A DNA stretch of 56,091 nt, from positions 1 through 56,091 of the IMG/VR virus record IMGVR_UViG_3300010430_000049. One strand, 5' to 3'. The notes under the pieces are model-generated. The model saw only the letters and a program-made list of their open reading frames with translations. It made no database searches and was not told the origin of the DNA. This stretch comes from a virus. The position numbers and the translations under genes are program-made. The number at the start of each line of letters is the position of its first letter. Within the stretch, counting starts at the first letter, position 1. Positions 4 through 51,232 of the stretch are shown piece by piece.

Positions 4-150
4 ATGACACACCTCTACTGGCCTCGGCTGCTGCCGGGGCAGATCATCACCACCAAAGACGGCTACGGCAACGGCTACGGCTACGGCAACGGCTACGGCT
101 ACGGCGACGGCCACGGCTACGGCCACGGCTACGGCGGTACAGACTTCTAA
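4..150 (+). CDS. Gly/Tyr-rich repeat protein, array copy at left end of window
   Basis: Function unknown. The 48-residue product begins with the head MTHLYWPRLLPGQIIT, shared with the copies at 55339, 55536, 55814 and 56035, followed by a tail of alternating Gly with Tyr, Asn, Asp or His and ending in GGTDF. Its ATG overlaps the stop of a copy lying off the left edge: bases 2-7 read as a final Glu codon and TGA, as at the junction at 55536. It is the last array member, because the next gene (165) is unrelated and has its own ribosome-binding site. The tail is the shortest of the complete copies and is the only one containing His (GHGYGHGY). It could be structural, aggregating or a decoy; nothing in the sequence decides. 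Confidence 0.75.
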   Translation: MTHLYWPRLLPGQIITTKDGYGNGYGYGNGYGYGDGHGYGHGYGGTDF

Positions 151-18153: not shown

Positions 18154-21100
18154 TTAGTAGCCTAGCAACTCGATCGCCTGTTGGTACTGTTCACGGGTGG
18201 TCTTGGGTGCATACCGCGTGGTGCGCTCTGTGGCAGTCCGGCGGGCATCCCGCAGACGGCGAAGGGCGTTCTGTTGGAAGTTCGAGATCTCCAGCCCGGT
18301 ACCCCGGGCCTCGCGGTTCCACTCGCGCACTTCCCGTACCACTTGGTTGGCCTGTGCTGTGTCGCCACGCAGGCGGGCCTGTACGTAGGCGTTGTAGAAG
18401 GCCGCCGCCATATCCCGCTGGTAGTTCGACACTCGTTGGGATACCCGGATCAGACCGTACTGCTCAGCCGCAGCGGTTGGGTAGAAGCCCAGCGCCCGAG
18501 CTATGACTTCCATGGCACTCAGTTCGTCCGAGACGATGTAGCCACGGCGATCTACAACACCACCGCTTTCGACATAGGCCAGCGCATCGGCCCAAGCCCG
18601 GACCATGGTGACAGGTGCATTCCGCGCCAATCCCTCGAGGGAGGCAGGCCGGTCGGAGAGGCCCGCCGTATAGGCAGCCCATTGACCGGCTCCAGACACT
18701 GTGCTGAGAAGCCCCTGAGCCGCGCCGGCGACAGGTCCAGCAATACTCAGAAGTTCTCTGCCTACATCGGCGCCCGGGAGGAAGATGCTGGTGCCGGGGA
18801 ACAGATCGCCCAGAGAGGTACGGCCACCCACGTCACCCGGCACTATGGCGTTCACGAGACCATTCATCAGTAGCGGTGACATGCCGGGCATGATCGAGTC
18901 AATGGCGCGGGCGATCTCCAGCCGGAGGCTTGGTGTCTTGAGGCCCAGCCGCGCTGCGACAGTGTCTGCCAAGTCCTCAAGGTCCTCCGCGAAGGGCAGA
19001 CCAGAGAGCCCGGAGAGAGCGATGAGACCCCCGAGCATCATCAGTTGGCCCTTGCGCGGTAGGTTGCGCAGAAGCTGGACCGACATCGTCGGGAAAATCT
19101 TGTACATGTAGAGGAACTGCTGCGGCCCACCGCGCCACAGGGCGGGGCGGTTCATCACGGAGTATTCACCCAGCGTATCCTCAGCCGTTTTGACCGCGAA
19201 CTCACGTGCCTCGCGCATGGCGATCTCAGGTTCTTTCCCCGCTTGGATACCACGGTCATACTGCAGGCGGTACGCGGCCAGCAGCGTGGCACGCCGCGCC
19301 GATTGTTCGGTGCGATTGAAGAACACCATCCAGCCGTCGATGAATTTCTGAGAAGCAGCGCTGGTCATGCGGCCACGAGCGGACGAGATCAGCGAGTTCG
19401 ACAGGGCCGGAATAGCCACGCCCTCCTCGATTTCGCGGGCGAGGAACAGAGCCTCATCGCTGGTCAGCCCCGCCTTGCGCAGTGCCTGCTCGTCTTGTGC
19501 CAACGATCTGTAGTACGTCGCTGTGTTCTTCTCAGCGTCCAGCGTGCCGGGCGCACCGACTTGGCGCAGCGCCTTGAACATTGCCGCTTGGGCCGGACCA
19601 AACCCGAACCCGCCACCGAAGGCCGTGCTCGGGTTATACGTCGCCAGATAGGGCAGCGTGTTGGTGCCCAATGAGATCAGGTTCAGCGCTGCCGTGGCGG
19701 GCGAAGCACCAAGCTGCATCATCGAGGTGGCGGCACGGACCTGCGAGGCCACATCACCCGAACCGAAGTCGGATTCGTCGAGGTTCTTCTGGCTCTCCAT
19801 GAAAGCCAGCGCCTTTGCTGCCTCGGAGTAGTACCGCTGGGACATACCCACGCCATCTTTATCTTCGCGCAAGGTGTTCTTGCGCTGGTAGACGTACTCA
19901 TCATAGGCGACCGCTGCCACCCGGACGGCAGCGGTCGCGTTCGGGTCGGCCAAGGCTGCTTCATACGCAGACTTCAACCGGTCCAGCTTGGCTGTGTCGT
20001 CGGCGTTCCACAGCTTGCGGGTCTGGTCGAGATTCATGTTCATCAGGCGGTCAAGGTCAGGGCGCACCACCGTCTTGGCGATAGTGGATGCGCGGGATTC
20101 GATGTGCCCCGAGATCGCCTTGGCTGCATCGGTATCGGCCCCCGGCTGAAACGTACGCTGCAACCGGTTACGCGCCCGGCTGTTCTGCCGAGTCAGAGTG
20201 ACAACCACTTCTTCCATCTTACGAGGATCGAGGTTGATACTGAAGCGGCGCAGACCAATTATGAACTCGTTGAGGTTTAGCTGCGGCGGCGCGGAGATGG
20301 CGTCCACAGCCTGCTCGGCCTTGGCCACCAGCTTCACCTTCTTCACCTTGTAGACCCGGTCGGCGCTGTCCCAGACAGCCACGTCGTGGGTGGTGCCATC
20401 GAACAACTCGTTGACACGGTCACGCAGAACCGCAGCCTCACCGACGCTGGCAATCTGGTGGTATGAAAGCTGCTGCTGGAATGTGTCCTTCATCTTGAGG
20501 ATGCGACCCGTATCTGGGTCCACGGCAGTCATGCGAACTTGGAACCGGCCCTCGCGCAGCACCGGAGTGTAGCCTGTGGCGATAGTGCGCTCTGTGAAAA
20601 ACCCGTTGTCGTTCCGCGAGATCTCGTCCACCGCGATCTCTTTGACCTTGTTCTGGACGACGAACTTCTCTTGGTCAGTGCGTGGCGAGAAGCGGGTCTT
20701 GAAGTCCTCGATGCGGGTGGTGAGGTCGTCGTGGTCGGCCTGATCGAAGTAAGTCAGCACAGCCGCATTGCGGTCGCTGCCCTTGGTGGCGATCAGGGCC
20801 GCGTTCACAGCCACGAGGAAGTCGTCCGCGTCCTTCATGGACTGCGCGTCGATGACCACCTGACCATCTTCGCTGATCGTCAGGTTGTTGGTATATAGGT
20901 CGCGGTACTTCTCGTTCATGCGCAGCAGGAACTGGCGGTCCAGCGCCGTCATCCGGTTGCCCATCGCCTCGTCGATCTCGTAAAGCTGGTTGTCCACGGT
21001 CTTGAGGTGCGCGGTGTAGTGCGCCTTGAGCAGCTCAACTTCCATCCGCTCCACCTGTTCCCGGGCGGCGACATAGGATTTCCACTCGATGCTATCTGCG

Positions 21101-24100
21101 GTGAGGTTGGGTACACCGGGGAAGCGTTCTTCGCGTGGTTGGAGGAAGGTCTCAGCGTCGATCTGGACCTTGTAGTCCGTCTCGATTGCCTTGCGCTCTG
21201 CATCCGTCTTGGCTTGTGCCGACTCGTTGTCACGCCGGGTGCGCAATTCGGCCCGCTTGGCGTCGGTCATCGGCACGTCGTCGTAGACCGTGTAGGCAAA
21301 GCCGTCACGGAACTCTTTGACGGTGCGACGACCCTGCTTGCGCAGTTCTTCCAGACGGGCTTTGTTGACCGTCGGCTCGCCATCGACAAGCTGGATCAGA
21401 CCGGGCCGACGGGCGTCGGGCTTTATGTCGAACTTCGACACAGCGTACCGCTGCGCCGCGTAGATCATGGAGTCCACGGTCTCTTTCTGGCTGCGGGTCA
21501 CACCGTCGCCAAGGCGCGTCACCCCGAGGTTCAGGCTCGGGTTGAGGTACATGGCCATCGCCTCGTTGGCCTCGTTCTTATAGCGCATTGACAGGCGATT
21601 CGCGCCGAGCACCAACTCGTAGAACTTCTTGAGGCCCGGGTTCTGCTTGGCCCGGTAGTTGGTCAGGCTGAACACGTCTGCCTTGAGCCGGTCCCAAGTA
21701 TCCGCGATGTTGCGGAAGTTGGAGATCAGCCCCTCCTTGGTATACGGCAGAGTGGACCCATCGAGATTGCCAGCGATGATACCCATACCAGACAGGGTGT
21801 TGGCCGGCGCGAAGCGGCCGGTGCCGTCCGGGTCCATTCCGCTCTCGATGCTGTGCAGGCGCTGGGCGATCGCGGCGTTGTCGAACACACCACTGGTCTC
21901 TCCATTGCGCACGTACCGACGGGCTTGGGTCACTAGGTAGCGGGCCGCATCGTCACCGAACTTCACGCCCAGCTTGTTTAGGGCGTTCTTCAGTGTGTTC
22001 CAGATGCGAGCAATCAGGCTGGTGTCCAACACGGCGGCGAAGTCCGCGAGGTATTCCTCAACCGCTTCTGCTTTGCTCAGGCCCCGGGCAGCCACGGCAG
22101 CATCGGCAGCGCTGCGCACCACCTCGCTGGTATCGTAGACGGCATCCATCAGCGAGTTGAACTGTGCCTGCGGCAGCAGCCCGCGCATACCGAAGTGCCC
22201 CATGGTTTCGTGGGCCAGCACGGCTTTCAGGTGCGCTTCATCGACGATGTTGTCGGTAAAGATCAGGACGTTGCCGTCTCCGAACGAGTACCCGGAAGCC
22301 TGTACTGTGGCGAAGTCACCTTGTGGGCGGGCCGCGTCGGCCTCGGCAAACAACTCGGGGGCCTTGCGCTGGAGCTCCTCGATATTGCGGTACACCCGCA
22401 CCTTCGGTTTGGTGGCCAACCGGGCGAGAAAGTTGCTCGTGACCAGCTTGGCTTTGCCCATCGGGATGGGGTTAGTAATAACGTTGTAGCTGGACAACTT
22501 GGTGCGCCCCGTGGCTTTACTCACCACCGGGCGGATGCCGTCAGCGTTACGCGGGCCACGGACAAAGAAGCCCGGCGAGTTCTCGTCGATGAAGCTACCC
22601 AGTGTCTCGCCTGCGTACTGCGGGTTGGTGCCCTTTATGTTGTTCCAAGCATCGCGCAGCTTCGAGCGAATCATCGGTGTCACATCGCGCAGCTTACCTG
22701 CGTTCAGGTCCTCCAGCGTCTGGACGACGATCTGGGTGTCCATGTCTGCGCCGAGCACATCCTCGGGCTTCACACTCGCATCTTTGCGCTGCGCCCTGTA
22801 CAGGTCCTTGGCCGCACGAACCTGCGTAGCGACAGCCGGATCCGCCTCCATAGCAGCGATGAAGGTATCAGCCCGCTGCTTCATAGCCTTGGTGCCGTTC
22901 TTGGCCCAGAAGAACACATCGGTCATGTTCTCCACAAACGCCTTGTCGGTCGTCGCAGTTTCAACCTCGGTAATCGCATCTTCGAGGAACGCGGCTTCGT
23001 CTGCCGCAGCGGGACCCTCTTCCGCACGCGCCACGGCTTCTGTCCCCGCAGTCGGTGTGGGTTCAACAGCGGCCTCGGGCTCCGCCGAGGTGACGGGCTC
23101 CAACTCGCGGCGACCACCACGCCCTTCTACGACTTGGACTTCCGGCTCAGGCGCAACTTCTGTCGCTACTTCTTGGGCTTCCTCGACACGCGATCCGGCA
23201 GCTTCTTGCCCTTGGGTGTCTTCGCCTCGAACTCCTTTGCCAGCTTTGGGTCCTTGGCGTAGAGTGCGCGCCTTTGCGCCTTGCTCTTGAACGGCATCCT
23301 TCTTCCTCCGTCTGAGTTTGCCACCCTTGGGCGGAGTAGGGGGTGTGGGCTCCGGTTCGGGCGCAGCCTCCGGCTCGATGATCGTCGGAGCTTCCATCAG
23401 AGGCTGCGCCCGCCCCGGGCGAACCCGACGCCGCAGGTCGTCAAACAAGGCTTGGTCTGCTGTCCCGTCAGACACGGCCTCGGACCACTGCTGCTGAGCA
23501 GTCGGGGTGAGCCTGTCGAAGGTAACACGAGAGCCTTCGGGGCGCAATTGCTCCCATGCCACTTCGGCGTCGATTAGCTGTTGACGCTCGGCTTCGCGCT
23601 GTTGTTCGGCCTGCCGCTGCGCGGCCTCGAACTCCGCCTCACGGCGGGCACGGGTGGCCGCTGCCTCCTCGGCCTGCTGGCGCAGGCGGTTCTGCGCCGC
23701 CCGACGCGCCTCAAGGATCGGCCCAAGCTGGGACGCAATCGCCGTTGGTTGTGTCGTCAGCTCCATCCGGCGCTGGCCGGCGGCCTCAAGCTCTGCCTGC
23801 GTAGCCTCTGGCGGTGCGGCGACCTCCGGGCGCGGGGCACCAGCGAGCCGCTGCCCTGTGAGACGGGCCTGCGTAGCTACGGGCACACCCGCTTCCGCCG
23901 GGGTGAACATCTCTCCTTGCCCGGGCTCGGCGCGCTGCTGGGGCAGTAGCGGCATAGGTACTACCCGCTGCTCGGGAAGCAGCTGCAGGGGTAGGGGTAA
24001 TTCAGGCTGCGTCTCTGCAGCAGTCGGTGCGGGCCTCGGCGGACCAGCGTATTCTGTCGTCGGTGCAGGCTGTACCGTGGGTACAAATAGTCCTAGCTGT

Positions 24101-25536
24101 TCGGGCCCAAGTGGCAACTCCAGCTGGGTCTCTGCAGATGCCGCAGGCTGCGGGGCCGGACCCGCATATTCAGTGCGGGGCGCGGCCTGTGCCGGCAATT
24201 CCTCAAACAACCCCAACTGCTCAGGCGTGGCCTGCGGATCGAGCGTGGCACCATTGAGGGCATCCACCGGCTGGCCGGAGTCGACGTCGCGGCGCGGCGG
24301 GGGCGGGGGTGTGTCTGTCTGAACTTCGGGTGAAGCGATCGCACCGAGCGGACCGCCCAGCAGGAAGCCAGCGCCGAAGGAGATGAGAGCCTCTTCGCCA
24401 TACTTACGCGCAAAGGCGGGGGCGATCGCCATCCAGTCGCCTTCGGTCATCAGTGCCCGCAGCTCGGGGTCGAAGGCCACACGGTCAACAACGACAGCGG
24501 TGGTCTCTGCCAGACCTTCCACGGCGCCAGCGCCTACGCCGCGAGTGATGCGGCTACCGAGCGATTTACCAGCGACATCTCCGAGCACCTGCCGGAAGGC
24601 TGGTGACAGTCCGCGCGCCAGCCACGCAGCACCGAAGGTCTGTGCGGCCGTCTTGCCAAGCGCGGCAGCGAGGATCTCGCCTTGCACACCGGAGTCAGTG
24701 ACGTCCAGATCGGGGTTGGCCTCTGCAGCCTCCCACGAAGACTGGAGCTCCATCGGCAAAATGGAGAGCGCGACACCCGCGAGTGCCCCGACAGGGCCGC
24801 CAACTGCAGCGCCCGCAAGACCGGCGCCAATTGCCGTCGCTAATGTGGGTGCCGACTGAATCGTGGCAGTGCCGATCTTGCCGGGTAGCCCTTGCTGCCC
24901 AGAGATAGCAGCCGAGCGCGCCTCTTCGGCGGGCGACAGGCCGATAGCCTCACCAAGACCGACCAGTGCCTGCCCAGCCTCCTCAGCCCCCAGCATCTGA
25001 AGGCCGCGACCGACGCCGCCGACAAGCCCCTCACCCACGTTCTGCAGACCGACGCCGATATTCCCGGCAAACCCACGCCCCTCGGAGATGGAGGAGAGAT
25101 ACCGACCATACTGGTCGGGCCTCAGCCGCCGCCAATCGGGCGCGGCCGTCTGGGGGCCTCCTTGCTGGTTGAGGAACTCGGGCGATTGTAGCGCTACATC
25201 ATACTCTTCCTCGCCGAACTCCACGCCACCGACGGAGTACCGTCCGAGCATAGGGCTGTAGAAGATGTCTAGTGGTCCTAACCGCGCCGGGGCCTCCGGG
25301 GCTGGCGCCTCCGGGGCGGCCACCTGCACAGGCGGCGCGCGCAATTCCATAGGAACAAAACCCGTCGAGGTCGACGGGGGTACAAGCCCGAGTGCTCTGT
25401 CGGCGGTGGTCGTCGTAATCTGCGACGTGCCAAGCGCAGCCCGCGCAGGATCGTAGGGCGTGCGGGGGTCGGCAGACCAACCCAACCCCATGGCCTGCAT
25501 CCTCGGATCAAAGAAGAGCGAGCTGTCTTGTGGCAC
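18154..25536 (-). CDS. Giant ejected-type virion protein with zincin motif
   Basis: 2460 residues, the last gene of the late block. The first 100 residues are unrecognised; 160-400 contain several Gly/Ala-rich hydrophobic helices; 400-860 are low complexity (Pro, Glu, Gln, Ala) with two copies of EQLGLF (440 and 480 region); HETMGH at 1109-1114 with EEYLADF about 50 residues later matches the zincin-like domain of large polyvalent phage proteins; the last 600 residues are helical with further hydrophobic segments. Such proteins are packed in the capsid and enter the host with the DNA. Whether it is a protease is not known. The stop lies 2 bp from the stop of the primase gene. Confidence 0.8.
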   Translation of the reverse strand: MPQDSSLFFDPRMQAMGLGWSADPRTPYDPARAALGTSQITTTTADRALGLVPPSTSTGFVPMELRAPPVQVAAPEAPAPEAPARLGPLDIFYSPMLGRYSVGGVEFGEEEYDVALQSPEFLNQQGGPQTAAPDWRRLRPDQYGRYLSSISEGRGFAGNIGVGLQNVGEGLVGGVGRGLQMLGAEEAGQALVGLGEAIGLSPAEEARSAAISGQQGLPGKIGTATIQSAPTLATAIGAGLAGAAVGGPVGALAGVALSILPMELQSSWEAAEANPDLDVTDSGVQGEILAAALGKTAAQTFGAAWLARGLSPAFRQVLGDVAGKSLGSRITRGVGAGAVEGLAETTAVVVDRVAFDPELRALMTEGDWMAIAPAFARKYGEEALISFGAGFLLGGPLGAIASPEVQTDTPPPPPRRDVDSGQPVDALNGATLDPQATPEQLGLFEELPAQAAPRTEYAGPAPQPAASAETQLELPLGPEQLGLFVPTVQPAPTTEYAGPPRPAPTAAETQPELPLPLQLLPEQRVVPMPLLPQQRAEPGQGEMFTPAEAGVPVATQARLTGQRLAGAPRPEVAAPPEATQAELEAAGQRRMELTTQPTAIASQLGPILEARRAAQNRLRQQAEEAAATRARREAEFEAAQRQAEQQREAERQQLIDAEVAWEQLRPEGSRVTFDRLTPTAQQQWSEAVSDGTADQALFDDLRRRVRPGRAQPLMEAPTIIEPEAAPEPEPTPPTPPKGGKLRRRKKDAVQEQGAKARTLRQGPKAGKGVRGEDTQGQEAAGSRVEEAQEVATEVAPEPEVQVVEGRGGRRELEPVTSAEPEAAVEPTPTAGTEAVARAEEGPAAADEAAFLEDAITEVETATTDKAFVENMTDVFFWAKNGTKAMKQRADTFIAAMEADPAVATQVRAAKDLYRAQRKDASVKPEDVLGADMDTQIVVQTLEDLNAGKLRDVTPMIRSKLRDAWNNIKGTNPQYAGETLGSFIDENSPGFFVRGPRNADGIRPVVSKATGRTKLSSYNVITNPIPMGKAKLVTSNFLARLATKPKVRVYRNIEELQRKAPELFAEADAARPQGDFATVQASGYSFGDGNVLIFTDNIVDEAHLKAVLAHETMGHFGMRGLLPQAQFNSLMDAVYDTSEVVRSAADAAVAARGLSKAEAVEEYLADFAAVLDTSLIARIWNTLKNALNKLGVKFGDDAARYLVTQARRYVRNGETSGVFDNAAIAQRLHSIESGMDPDGTGRFAPANTLSGMGIIAGNLDGSTLPYTKEGLISNFRNIADTWDRLKADVFSLTNYRAKQNPGLKKFYELVLGANRLSMRYKNEANEAMAMYLNPSLNLGVTRLGDGVTRSQKETVDSMIYAAQRYAVSKFDIKPDARRPGLIQLVDGEPTVNKARLEELRKQGRRTVKEFRDGFAYTVYDDVPMTDAKRAELRTRRDNESAQAKTDAERKAIETDYKVQIDAETFLQPREERFPGVPNLTADSIEWKSYVAAREQVERMEVELLKAHYTAHLKTVDNQLYEIDEAMGNRMTALDRQFLLRMNEKYRDLYTNNLTISEDGQVVIDAQSMKDADDFLVAVNAALIATKGSDRNAAVLTYFDQADHDDLTTRIEDFKTRFSPRTDQEKFVVQNKVKEIAVDEISRNDNGFFTERTIATGYTPVLREGRFQVRMTAVDPDTGRILKMKDTFQQQLSYHQIASVGEAAVLRDRVNELFDGTTHDVAVWDSADRVYKVKKVKLVAKAEQAVDAISAPPQLNLNEFIIGLRRFSINLDPRKMEEVVVTLTRQNSRARNRLQRTFQPGADTDAAKAISGHIESRASTIAKTVVRPDLDRLMNMNLDQTRKLWNADDTAKLDRLKSAYEAALADPNATAAVRVAAVAYDEYVYQRKNTLREDKDGVGMSQRYYSEAAKALAFMESQKNLDESDFGSGDVASQVRAATSMMQLGASPATAALNLISLGTNTLPYLATYNPSTAFGGGFGFGPAQAAMFKALRQVGAPGTLDAEKNTATYYRSLAQDEQALRKAGLTSDEALFLAREIEEGVAIPALSNSLISSARGRMTSAASQKFIDGWMVFFNRTEQSARRATLLAAYRLQYDRGIQAGKEPEIAMREAREFAVKTAEDTLGEYSVMNRPALWRGGPQQFLYMYKIFPTMSVQLLRNLPRKGQLMMLGGLIALSGLSGLPFAEDLEDLADTVAARLGLKTPSLRLEIARAIDSIMPGMSPLLMNGLVNAIVPGDVGGRTSLGDLFPGTSIFLPGADVGRELLSIAGPVAGAAQGLLSTVSGAGQWAAYTAGLSDRPASLEGLARNAPVTMVRAWADALAYVESGGVVDRRGYIVSDELSAMEVIARALGFYPTAAAEQYGLIRVSQRVSNYQRDMAAAFYNAYVQARLRGDTAQANQVVREVREWNREARGTGLEISNFQQNALRRLRDARRTATERTTRYAPKTTREQYQQAIELLGY

Positions 25537-48034: not shown

Positions 48035-48559
48035 CTAGGTCTTGCGTCCACCCTTATAGGTCCGGGTATTGCGCGCCTGCTCTACCCGTGTGGCCCACCG
48101 CACATTTCCCGGCTCGTAGTCCCCGTCGTTGTCGATCCGATCAACTGTATGCTTTGGTGACGGTCTCGGGCCGATATGGTCGAAGAACGCTTGGAAGTCA
48201 TCTTGCCACTCTACGCAGACTGTAATCCCCCGCCCACCGTAGTTCTTATACCCTACAGCTCTCGGATAGTTGCACCGCTCGCGCATTGCCGTCCACGCGC
48301 GATATTCCGGCGATGCTTTGCCACCGGGCAAAGCCCTACTCTGACCATGCGTCCGTAACCGCTTACTGGTTGTCTCTCTTAGGAGACAACCACAAGACCG
48401 TATCTTCCCGGTCCGTAGGTTCTGGCTCATCACGTACTTACTGCCACCGCACTCGCAGGTGCAACGCCAGTAAATCTCTTTGCGCCCGTAAAGGCGGGTG
48501 TAGTCATGCGCAGTCAAGCGACCGAACTTCTGGTCGGATATGTCTATGAACTTTCCCAT
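48035..48559 (-). CDS. HNH homing endonuclease (GGRGI-type) with N-terminal zinc motif
   Basis: Same family as the gene at 1676: YGGRGITVCVEW at about residues 107-118, VDRIDNDGDYEPGNVRWAT at about 139-157. The N-terminus adds a Cys cluster (CTCEC at 33-37, SCGC at 55-58), probably a zinc-binding DNA-contact element of the kind seen in related phage endonucleases. No strong ribosome-binding site is present and the ATG lies in a small hairpin (TCCCA with TGGGA at 48554-48567), suggesting weak expression. It stands between terminase and fibre genes as a free-standing mobile gene. Confidence 0.88.
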   Translation of the reverse strand: MGKFIDISDQKFGRLTAHDYTRLYGRKEIYWRCTCECGGSKYVMSQNLRTGKIRSCGCLLRETTSKRLRTHGQSRALPGGKASPEYRAWTAMRERCNYPRAVGYKNYGGRGITVCVEWQDDFQAFFDHIGPRPSPKHTVDRIDNDGDYEPGNVRWATRVEQARNTRTYKGGRKT

Positions 48560-48586: not shown

Positions 48587-50854
48587 TTATGTCCACCCCA
48601 TAGACGAAACAGCCTTAACTTGTCTGCGGCTAGCAAGCTCGGCGCCTCCACCGGCGGACGAAACGTGCAGCATCAGGTACTGGAGTGCTTCGGCCACGTG
48701 ACTGTGCCGTCCGGCCGCCCCCGTCTTGTCGATCTTCCCGTTCTTGTCGAACCGGTACCCGCCCATCATCGCGGCCTTGAGCCGCGTACACCGTGGGTCC
48801 ACGAGGAACGCACTGTCCCCATCCACCTGCCTCATGAGGTAGTCGTCGACCGCGTTGAGGCGTGCGCTGACCTTGTTGGTCTTGGCCGGTATGACCTTGA
48901 GCCCTTCTGCCCTGATTATGTCGACCGCGCTCCGCTCGTCGGTCTGTGCCCTCTGCACGCCTGCCGGGTCAACGACCACAAGGATGGGGCTGCCTGAGAA
49001 ACGCTCGAGCAGCAACGGCTTGAGCATTGTGCGGACGAACCGTTGTACGCCCATGTCGAAGCTGACCAGCTCGTCATAGACAAGCGCCCGCCCGCGAGGA
49101 TCCTGTTGCCCCAGAACGGCCGCCGGCGTCAACCCCAGATCCATCCCCACGACGATCGGCCGCGTGCCGTTGATGATTGGCCGCAGGCGCGACGACGCCA
49201 TGTGGTAGTCCGCACGAAAGTACTGGTACACCGGCTGCCCTGCCGAGCTCAGCCCGTACTCGCCATCGATGAAGACCCGGATGTACTCCTCCGACCGGCC
49301 TTGGGTATCATAATACCCCTCTGGCAGGTTCTCGATGTTCTCGGCATAGACGCTCCGCCCCGAGGGCTGCTTGAACACATCCCATCCGTTGTCATTGGGG
49401 CTGACCCCGTCCTTGTGGTCGAGATGCTCCATCTGGTAGTACCACCACGTGTCCATGGTCGGCGGGTTGGTGTCCCCCCACATTCCGAACCACGTAGGTC
49501 CGCCGTCCTTGGAAGACGGGAATCGCCCGATCCGCTTCGACATGGCGTCCACGATCTCCGGGTGGATGTCCCTGCACTCGTTGAACCACGCGAACGTAAG
49601 TTCCAGTGAGTTCAGGTTGGCCACGTCGTCCGCGTCGTCCAGCGCCCGGAACATGATCTCGCACTCGATGTCCCCCACCTCGAAGAAGTAGGTCTTGGTG
49701 GTGCGCATGTACCGCCCGCACACCCCCGGCGGGAACCAGTCTAGAAACGTCTTGATCGTCGTGTCCTGAAGCTGACGCGCCGTCTCGCGGACGATCGCTG
49801 CCCGTGTCCTGCGCTTGCCCGTCGTCTGGTCTGGCTCCTGCATGGCCGCCCGGCGCACGATCTCGAAGCTGCAGGTCACGGACTTACCCGAGTTGTGGTG
49901 GATCGTCCCGTCAACCGTGACGTAGTTGTTCGTGTCCAGAACCTGCATATCCCAATAGGACCGCTTGACGGTCTCCCGGGTAACCGATACGATGGTCCCG
50001 TCGGATATGTAGGGGATGTGAGATGAACGAGAACACACGGAAAATTGTGGCGCTGTCAGATGGAACGCGGTCTTCTGTTGAGATAGCTGAGCTTGTTGGG
50101 CTGTCACCCCGCTATGTGCGCAAAGTGATGCTGCGTATGGACCTGCCAAGGCTGGGTGAGGGTGCGCAACCCGGCGCATCCAATCACCAATACAGGTCAG
50201 GACGCCGTGTAGACCATGACGGGTACGTTCTTGTAACCGCCCCGGCAGACCATCCGTACGCCCGGCAACGGACCAACCGTACAGGGAAGCTGATCTACGA
50301 ACACCGCCTAGTCCTTGAACAAACTCTAGGTCGATACCTTCTTCCCGAAGAAGTTGTAGACCACGTTGACGGGCTGACTCTGCATAACGCTCCAGATAAC
50401 CTACGGCTGTTCTCGTCGAATGCGGAGCATCTTTCAGAGACAACGGCTGGCCGCACAAAGCTGTGGTCAGCGCAGGGGCGCCAGAACATAGGGACAAGGA
50501 CTGACCGGGGCAGAGCGATCCAACCCGTTGATAGCTACGGTCAGCGGCGTAAGTCAGGTGATGTTCGTTTGCGGCAAATCCTCCTTGCGGCGTTGTCACT
50601 CGGATCAGATAGTCCGTACCTTTTGGGAACGCACCACCACACCAAGAAAGCTGGAATCGACATGTCTTGTCGTTCCACGATACAACGCGCATTGGACGAT
50701 CTATACGCCAGATGGGTATAGGACCGTGCTCAGTCAGAACCAACGTGTCGGGTGCAACGCACCCCACGGGGCCCATCAGAACCCGCATCTTTGCGTCTGA
50801 TGCCATGAACTTCTCGCCCGTGGGCGGCGGCGTGTAGTCTATATCCAGTGGCAT
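48587..50854 (-). CDS. terL: Terminase large subunit, interrupted by intein
   Basis: Precursor of 755 residues. Residues 1-31 and 322-755 join to a terminase of 465 residues, in which GPVG (28-31) and SGKS (322-325) make the Walker A motif GPVGSGKS. Downstream are the ATPase segment LTFAWFNECRD and the nuclease segment GMDLGLTPAA ... VVVDPAG ... DDYLM of RNase H-like terminase nucleases. Residues 32-321 are an intein. Packaging would require protein splicing, since the unspliced form has a broken ATP-binding loop. The start overlaps the stop of the 55-aa gene before it (TGATG). Confidence 0.93.
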   Translation of the reverse strand: MPLDIDYTPPPTGEKFMASDAKMRVLMGPVGCVAPDTLVLTEHGPIPIWRIDRPMRVVSWNDKTCRFQLSWCGGAFPKGTDYLIRVTTPQGGFAANEHHLTYAADRSYQRVGSLCPGQSLSLCSGAPALTTALCGQPLSLKDAPHSTRTAVGYLERYAESARQRGLQLLREEGIDLEFVQGLGGVRRSASLYGWSVAGRTDGLPGRLQERTRHGLHGVLTCIGDWMRRVAHPHPALAGPYAASLCAHSGVTAQQAQLSQQKTAFHLTAPQFSVCSRSSHIPYISDGTIVSVTRETVKRSYWDMQVLDTNNYVTVDGTIHHNSGKSVTCSFEIVRRAAMQEPDQTTGKRRTRAAIVRETARQLQDTTIKTFLDWFPPGVCGRYMRTTKTYFFEVGDIECEIMFRALDDADDVANLNSLELTFAWFNECRDIHPEIVDAMSKRIGRFPSSKDGGPTWFGMWGDTNPPTMDTWWYYQMEHLDHKDGVSPNDNGWDVFKQPSGRSVYAENIENLPEGYYDTQGRSEEYIRVFIDGEYGLSSAGQPVYQYFRADYHMASSRLRPIINGTRPIVVGMDLGLTPAAVLGQQDPRGRALVYDELVSFDMGVQRFVRTMLKPLLLERFSGSPILVVVDPAGVQRAQTDERSAVDIIRAEGLKVIPAKTNKVSARLNAVDDYLMRQVDGDSAFLVDPRCTRLKAAMMGGYRFDKNGKIDKTGAAGRHSHVAEALQYLMLHVSSAGGGAELASRRQVKAVSSMGWT
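49965..49993 (+). promoter_or_regulatory. Promoter for antisense HNH gene, inside intein coding sequence
   Basis: TTGACG (49965-49970), 17-nt spacer, TACGAT (49988-49993). The -35 matches five of six and the -10 four of six consensus bases, with ideal spacing. It is followed by a GGGGA ribosome-binding site and the ATG at 50023. On the other strand the same bases encode the intein C-terminal splicing block. Confidence 0.5.
50023..50721 (+). CDS. HNH homing endonuclease, nested antisense in the terL intein
   Basis: 232 residues. The N-terminus (about 15-42) is a helix-turn-helix: RSSVEIAELVGLSPRYVRKV. The middle is an HNH_3-type domain: GYVLVTAPADHPYA (67-80), YEHRLVLEQTLGRYL (92-106), VVDHVDGLTLHNAPDNLRLF (111-130), with His94, Asp113-His114, Asn122 and Asn126 as active-site candidates. 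The C-terminal 75 residues lie opposite the N-terminal splicing domain of the intein. It has its own promoter and GGGGA before the ATG. It presumably mobilises the intein by cutting terL genes without it. Confidence 0.9.
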   Translation: MNENTRKIVALSDGTRSSVEIAELVGLSPRYVRKVMLRMDLPRLGEGAQPGASNHQYRSGRRVDHDGYVLVTAPADHPYARQRTNRTGKLIYEHRLVLEQTLGRYLLPEEVVDHVDGLTLHNAPDNLRLFSSNAEHLSETTAGRTKLWSAQGRQNIGTRTDRGRAIQPVDSYGQRRKSGDVRLRQILLAALSLGSDSPYLLGTHHHTKKAGIDMSCRSTIQRALDDLYARWV

Positions 50855-51021
50855 CAGTGAACCTCCGCCTCACGCCCGTCCAGCGAGTGGTGTATGTAGA
50901 CCAGCCCCTCTGCCTCGAGATCCATTGTCGGGTAACACCAGCACTCCGGGGAGCACTCGTGCTCCTTCAGGTCATTCATGGGGATAACATGCCAGCCGTA
51001 AACATCCGGGTCGTCATCCAT
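50854..51021 (-). CDS. Small Cys-containing protein upstream of terL, 55 aa
   Basis: Fits exactly between the 72-aa gene and terL, overlapping both. The product has HECSPECWCYP (residues about 21-31), a His/Cys cluster that may bind zinc, and ends VYIHHSLDGREAEVH. Similar small proteins occur before terL in aquatic phages, from memory. Function unknown. Confidence 0.7.
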   Translation of the reverse strand: MDDDPDVYGWHVIPMNDLKEHECSPECWCYPTMDLEAEGLVYIHHSLDGREAEVH

Positions 51022-51232
51022 ACGTGCGTTCCTTTACCAGTATCACCACGATTTCCCTCGGGCGTCCTTTTGGGCGTCGGTGCGTTCTGCCACGTGGGGG
51101 GATGATTTTCGTCCTGTACGAGTGGCCTTCGCCTTCAAGCGCCGTGCGTAGTTCTTCATGCTCTCGTAGCGTCTGCAAGCGGACTGCCGGAGATCCCTCA
51201 TAGGTACTGTCAAAACTCGTCAGTATGCTCAA
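51014..51232 (-). CDS. Small basic protein, 72 aa
   Basis: Not recognised. It overlaps the small-terminase gene by 23 nt and the next gene by 8 nt. The C-terminal half is basic (IIPPRGRTHRRPKGRPREIVVILV), suggesting nucleic acid binding, possibly as a packaging accessory. Confidence 0.6.
   Translation of the reverse strand: MSILTSFDSTYEGSPAVRLQTLREHEELRTALEGEGHSYRTKIIPPRGRTHRRPKGRPREIVVILVKERTYG

Follow-up and report, generated by a model that had tools for sequence, protein, structure and literature searches.

In mobile inteins, according to the textbook view, the splicing domain and the homing endonuclease are fused in one protein. How, then, can an intein carry an endonuclease whose gene lies on the other strand? 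This question is raised by a large terminase (TerL) gene in a viral sequence of 56,091 nucleotides (IMG/VR record IMGVR_UViG_3300010430_000049, positions 1–56,091; the whole stretch analyzed is referred to as the window), for which a reading made from the sequence only had proposed an intein with an HNH endonuclease gene nested antisense inside it. Our analysis supports the view that this locus is a mobile intein with its homing endonuclease encoded on the opposite strand, a reading to which we assign a probability of roughly 0.85.

The TerL precursor gene (48587–50854, minus strand; phage_term_2, phrog_10250) runs without a stop for 755 codons, as originally described, and is open through the intein. 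Over the C-extein, its product is 44% identical to a protein of Pseudomonas phage Rollin. The N-extein (50762–50854, minus strand) consists of 31 codons and ends in LMGPVG, the first half of the Walker A motif. It is followed by the 290-codon intein (49892–50761, minus strand), which extends from Cys1 (codon 50759–50761) to His-His-Asn290 (Asn codon 49892–49894) and is delimited by its catalytic residues, profile, and fold. The C-extein (48587–49891, minus strand) starts with Ser at position +1 (SGKS...) and continues to the terL stop, as supported by the open frame and by empty-site relatives. Taking the 290 amino acids out of the precursor regains the Walker A loop GPVG^SGKS, and the empty-site relatives read GPVGSGKS. 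Elsewhere in the window, positions 18154–25536 (minus strand) form a single open frame of 2460 codons.

AlphaFold2 predicts two splicing domains with pLDDT values of ~95: an N-terminal domain (intein residues 1–95; 50477–50761, minus strand), which is also supported by alignment, and a C-terminal domain (residues 250–290, YWDMQVLDTNNYVTVDGTIHHN; 49892–50014, minus strand). A predicted disordered linker (residues 153–246; 50024–50305, minus strand; pLDDT ~31) lies antisense to the N-terminal part of the HNH gene. The intein model matches solved intein structures with a target TM of ~0.8, indicating a Hint fold, and a PDB search with the profile of the intein family alignment retrieves the Spl DnaX mini-intein (E 1.2e-5). 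The Pfam Intein_splicing profile matches the window intein weakly (E 0.12) and 38 of 49 family members, with a best E of 6.8e-9. Of the intein blocks and catalytic residues listed in the sequence-only reading, Cys1, the terminal His-Asn (HHN290), and Ser+1 were found as described; block B, which reads NEHH and not TxxH, proved non-canonical. Apart from a canonical block B, the insert has the features that define an intein, and from the conserved catalytic residues and the modelled fold we infer protein splicing of the TerL precursor. Removal of the insert as RNA, by a self-splicing intron, is exceedingly improbable and was rejected: although antisense endonuclease genes are known in group I introns (PMC9548176), a search of both strands of 49500–51100 for a catalytic RNA core gave no Rfam match at E 0.5, and the frame is continuous and contains the intein catalytic residues.

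The HNH gene (50023–50721, plus strand) begins with ATG, comprises 232 codons, and lies antisense and wholly inside the intein, in agreement with its first description as an HNH_3-type gene. Its HTH-HNH product matches HNH_3 (E 7.9e-7) and phrog_10730 (E 3.6e-60), retains conserved motif residues, and, modelled alone with AlphaFold2, reaches a mean pLDDT of 89.9; the best fold match of the model is the homing endonuclease I-HmuI, which is a weak one (E 0.14, probability 0.96). The endonuclease is not in frame with the splicing domain, as had been recognized, but antisense to it, with its own start and its own signals. The gene had also been thought to be confined to the region between the splicing halves. 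This did not hold, as HNH codons ~157–232 face intein residues ~15–91, that is, blocks A–B. Directly downstream of terL, the window contains another HNH gene (48035–48559, minus strand), which belongs to a different family (phrog_374, E 7e-60) and likely encodes a free-standing homing endonuclease.

A tblastn search of phage genomes with the HNH protein returned nine records with a nearly full-length relative, from Pectobacterium phages Taid, Pappous, Ymer, Abuela, Sabo, Koroua, and Amona, Dickeya phage Setonix, and Pseudoalteromonas phage PHS3. Six of these phage loci were translated, and all six have a terL frame that crosses the HNH gene without a stop. More relatives came from scans of IMG/VR and GTDB genomes, and removal of near-copies left 172 distinct HNH genes. 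The same antisense frame is stop-free in 169 of these, against means of 8.4 and 9.2 stops in the other two frames of that strand. Three genes depart from the pattern, namely L182 with one stop, L406, and L093; the last looks like a free-standing HTH-HNH gene. The HNH gene of L092 had appeared broken because its tblastn match extended beyond its stop; this was rejected, the HNH frame being intact. A recognizable intein end (HN followed by S, T, or C) is present in the antisense frame of 160 of the 169 open loci, with Ser at the +1 position in 143, Thr in 12, and Cys in 5; in the nine further open loci, the C-terminal junction was unmatched by the search pattern. The antisense-HNH intein is thus a large family, with the same arrangement in well over 100 phage and prophage sequences.

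In nearly all relatives, the insertion site is the Walker A motif, in very different TerLs. Two insertions (L252:2472–4973 and L335:2652–4922) occupy the Walker A motif of SNF2-like helicases, and the arrangement is therefore not limited to terminases; a scan seeded with the L252 HNH protein returned five relatives only. Intein relatives without an HNH gene were absent from the 80 loci kept, which were collected with search patterns biased towards the antisense-HNH family. In three loci (L045, L192, and L244), TerL bears a further intein-like insert close to its C-terminal end; the A, B, F, and G blocks of this insert are of the usual kind and leave no space for an endonuclease. Bacterial hosts, in which the element resides in prophages, include Enterobacter cloacae, Acinetobacter, and Escherichia coli MEI003. 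In the latter (L407, chromosome positions 148232–155239), RefSeq labels terL as incomplete or pseudo and the antisense HNH gene as an ordinary gene, and in the Pectobacterium phages the HNH gene is without annotation. Intein-bearing terL loci of this kind are probably widely mis-annotated.

Long antisense frames are common in high-GC genomes, and together with the weak Pfam match of the window intein this could suggest that codon usage and HNH conservation keep the frame open as a by-product, with the intein as a degenerate remnant. We compared the HNH genes with a null model in which synonymous codons were shuffled within each gene, so that protein and codon usage were kept. For the window gene alone, the antisense openness has a P of 0.0045, and over 53 non-redundant HNH genes no antisense stop was seen against 387 expected. 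These counts are not independent, since the genes are related; at 46 to 92% identity to the window HNH, or less among themselves, and in several TerL types, shared descent without selection is nevertheless insufficient as a reason. Furthermore, wobble freedom is lost only opposite the splicing domain, and Cys1 and H288-H289-N290 are invariant in 49/49 inteins of the overlapping family, in which the end of the HNH gene overprints the N-terminal splicing domain. The by-product explanation is therefore very unlikely. The open frame instead agrees with the original proposal of a composite element with its splicing protein and endonuclease on opposite strands, the latter with its own promoter and ribosome-binding site.

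The register of the two frames allows the constraint on each strand to be separated, as the HNH wobble position faces intein codon position 2, and the intein wobble position faces HNH position 2. Opposite the linker, divergence is 0.61 at intein position 2 and 0.20 at the intein wobble position, and the constraint acts on the HNH strand only. Opposite the N-terminal splicing domain (intein residues 17–76), divergence is 0.18, 0.24, and 0.20 at the three positions, all of which are constrained; for comparison, wobble divergence of intein and extein codons outside the HNH gene is 0.47–0.64. Both codon-position contrasts have a permutation P of 5e-5. This constraint on both strands means that ~76 HNH codons and intein blocks A–B are the same DNA: in the stretch 50491–50718, where HNH codons 157–232 (plus strand) face intein residues ~15–91 (minus strand), the C-terminal third of the HNH protein and the N-terminal splicing domain are a true case of dual coding, and both proteins depend on common base pairs.

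Dual coding likely has a cost, to judge from block B. The window intein has N65 at the position of the block B Thr, and among the 49 inteins of the overlapping family this position holds Thr in 2 and S, A, N, or L in 47, while H68 is invariant; in the non-overlapping sister family, all 56 inteins have the Thr of TxxH. As 47 of 49 overlapping members lack the usual Thr, their splicing could be slow or impaired. One may ask whether the insert splices at all, or whether it is a homing insertion of the ShiLan type, with the antisense reading merely tolerated as a loop of unspliced TerL. Such insertions with hidden out-of-frame HNH genes do exist (PMC11855218), and the intein linker is disordered in the AlphaFold2 model. 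We nonetheless consider this unlikely, since both splicing halves have the intein fold, Cys1, HN, and S/T/C+1 are conserved in 160 relatives, and the insert is constrained on the terL strand and interrupts the Walker A loop in an ATPase that is essential for packaging.

Comparison of the two intein families gives a clue to the origin of the overlap. They are related (profile comparison E 1.9e-31), and the tree, whose root is not secure, groups the overlapping family as a single clade (support 100/99) with the non-overlapping family as its sister. In the sister family, the HNH gene stops short of Cys1 by a median of 68 codons, and the HNH protein of the aligned member L091 lacks the C-terminal domain. 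Since the overlapping family is one clade and the aligned sister member lacks the domain, we lean towards the view that overprinting of the strand opposite the N-terminal splicing domain gave rise to the C-terminal domain of HNH. If so, endonuclease and splicing would be entangled in an essential phage gene through the base pairs that they share, and decay of the overprinted part of the endonuclease would be hindered; the C-terminal splicing codons similarly accommodate the HNH promoter and the putative operator. The sequence-only reading had pictured a mini-intein colonized by a free-standing HNH gene. Descent from a free-standing HTH-HNH gene is plausible in the light of L093, but the picture needs revision in that the locus is one of a large family and that, in the overlapping subfamily, the HNH gene is not limited to the gap but extends over the N-terminal splicing domain.

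The predicted expression signals of the HNH gene comprise a -35 box TTGACG (49965–49970, plus strand), a -10 box TACGAT after a 17-nt spacer (49988–49993, plus strand), and a Shine-Dalgarno-like AGGGG 7 nt upstream of the ATG (50011–50015, plus strand). The promoter had been proposed on the window sequence, where taken alone it is weak (one match found versus 0.5 expected by chance); conservation lends it weight, as a sigma-70-like promoter with at least 9/12 matches occurs in 30 of 53 relatives versus 5.6 expected, nearly always with a 17-nt spacer. Moreover, the Val codon opposite the -35 box is GTC in 22/22 relatives, compared with 24% GTC elsewhere, and such a locked codon points to selection on nucleotides and not on the amino acid. 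The proposed ribosome-binding site was borne out by a Shine-Dalgarno core in 41 of 53 relatives versus 4 expected, the AGGGG of the window being a variant outside that count. By these sequence patterns, the HNH gene has its own conserved sigma-70-like promoter and Shine-Dalgarno sequence within the C-terminal splicing codons of the intein.

Directly 3' of the -10 box lies a motif that resembles the uninterrupted terL Walker A site and is a putative operator (49994–50010, plus strand). Relative to the uninterrupted site (GGNCCNGTNGG...), the insertion codon is altered, and identity is 11/17 in the window and up to 14/17 in relatives. The 17-mer that best matches the joined site of its own locus begins at -29 or -26, counted from the HNH start, in 29 of the 32 loci whose exteins are of the P[VIFL]G type; where the exteins are of another type, it begins at -26 in 7 of 21. 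Among three tests of motif type, the P[VIFL]G class gave a P of 8e-18 but represents one clade, and the other two were weak (P 0.02 and 0.03). Over a long region, the match of the internal motif to its own homing site is diluted, with own exceeding cross in 59 of 95 comparisons. In a fixed register, the signal is clearer, and own and same-type sites match equally well, so the motif tracks the extein type and not the individual locus. As the motif overlaps the expected transcription start, the HNH protein would be a candidate repressor of its own gene, and we put the chance that 49994–50010 is an autorepression site at about even.

The search for the same insertion site in other terminases, as the sequence-only reading had suggested, was informative. 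Among TerL relatives of at least 81% identity, an exact empty site is found in 67 and the intein in 12, and the nearest empty-site relative is 94% identical. HNH genes that are 60–70% identical sit in TerLs that are 23–37% identical. Presence and absence at one site, together with such incongruent histories, point to horizontal mobility of the intein and its HNH gene. The exact empty sites and the promoter motif lend indirect support to the Walker A codons as the homing target. At L160:3851–5854, the N-terminal half of the HNH gene is deleted while the intein frame is still open, a possible stage of endonuclease decay that would fit an element passing through gain and decay. In other phages, HNH genes adjoining terminases take part in packaging (PMC11855218), and the HNH protein could accordingly be a packaging or defence nuclease that lies antisense to terL by chance. 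However, 67 of 79 close TerL relatives lack the intein and HNH together, which means that HNH is not needed for packaging, and the gene travels with the intein, into helicases too. A role other than homing is thus improbable.

For a mobile intein with an opposite-strand endonuclease, we propose the following mechanism. The terL mRNA (minus strand) would be translated through the entire insert, the two splicing halves would fold together, connected by a disordered linker that is read antisense to the N-terminal part of HNH, and self-excision of the intein would restore the Walker A loop of the terminase. From the plus strand, the sigma-70-like promoter and Shine-Dalgarno sequence would yield the separate HTH-HNH protein, possibly early, with the minus-strand transcript late, as the sequence-only reading had suggested. 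Judging from the empty sites, the site-like motif, and the incongruent histories, this protein most likely cleaves terL copies that lack the intein, at their Walker A codons, upon which repair would copy the element in; it may also repress itself through the site-like motif at its promoter. In the overlapping subfamily, as the codon-position constraint shows, the last ~76 HNH codons overprint the N-terminal splicing domain. Here, each of the two functions of a mobile intein has its own protein, encoded on its own strand of one stretch of DNA, an arrangement that annotation misreads. The family offers a natural, strongly supported case of antisense dual coding for two folded domains. It also opens to experiment the birth of domains by overprinting, the means by which a homing gene escapes decay, and the regulation of an endonuclease gene that lies antisense to a late operon.

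The sequence-only reading knew of no intein with its endonuclease on the opposite strand, and our search of the open-licence literature likewise turned up no intein described with an antisense endonuclease. Several known systems share parts of the arrangement. Fractured genes, in which split inteins accompany a free-standing endonuclease, were reportedly described by Dassa et al. in 2009. They have intein halves and a separately expressed endonuclease in common with the present family, but their host gene is split in two, whereas here one 755-codon precursor frame is continuous. I-DsqI is encoded by an antisense homing endonuclease gene in a nuclear group I intron (PMC9548176). Introns of this type also combine a self-splicing element with an antisense homing endonuclease; they lie in rDNA and splice as RNA, which removes any need for an open frame on the sense strand, and there is no dual coding of two proteins (PMC9548176). 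The ShiLan domain is a hidden out-of-frame HNH insertion in phage methylases (PMC11855218). Like the present element, it is mobile and open in the host frame, with the HNH gene in another frame; its HNH gene uses the third frame of the host gene, without a splicing domain or a detectable ribosome-binding site, whereas here the gene is on the opposite strand, an intein is present, and Shine-Dalgarno sequence and promoter are conserved.

The putative operator has a parallel in I-TevI, in which a homing-site-like sequence with 15/20 identity overlaps the endonuclease promoter (reviewed in PMC2988022). The geometry is common to both, with a site-like motif of up to 14/17 in our family; I-TevI is a GIY-YIG enzyme of a group I intron for which repression is proven, whereas here repression is suggested by the position of the motif. 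Finally, large inteins, among them TerL inteins of mycobacteriophages, contain an in-frame homing endonuclease domain (PMC5050341). They share with the present family the Hint domain, the insertion in a TerL ATPase motif, an endonuclease between or within the splicing halves, and a sporadic presence. In contrast to these inteins, the endonuclease is here a separate protein of the opposite strand with its own predicted promoter, and part of its gene overprints the splicing domain. With reference to the open-licence literature, the antisense-HNH intein is therefore a widespread, previously undescribed form of mobile intein.
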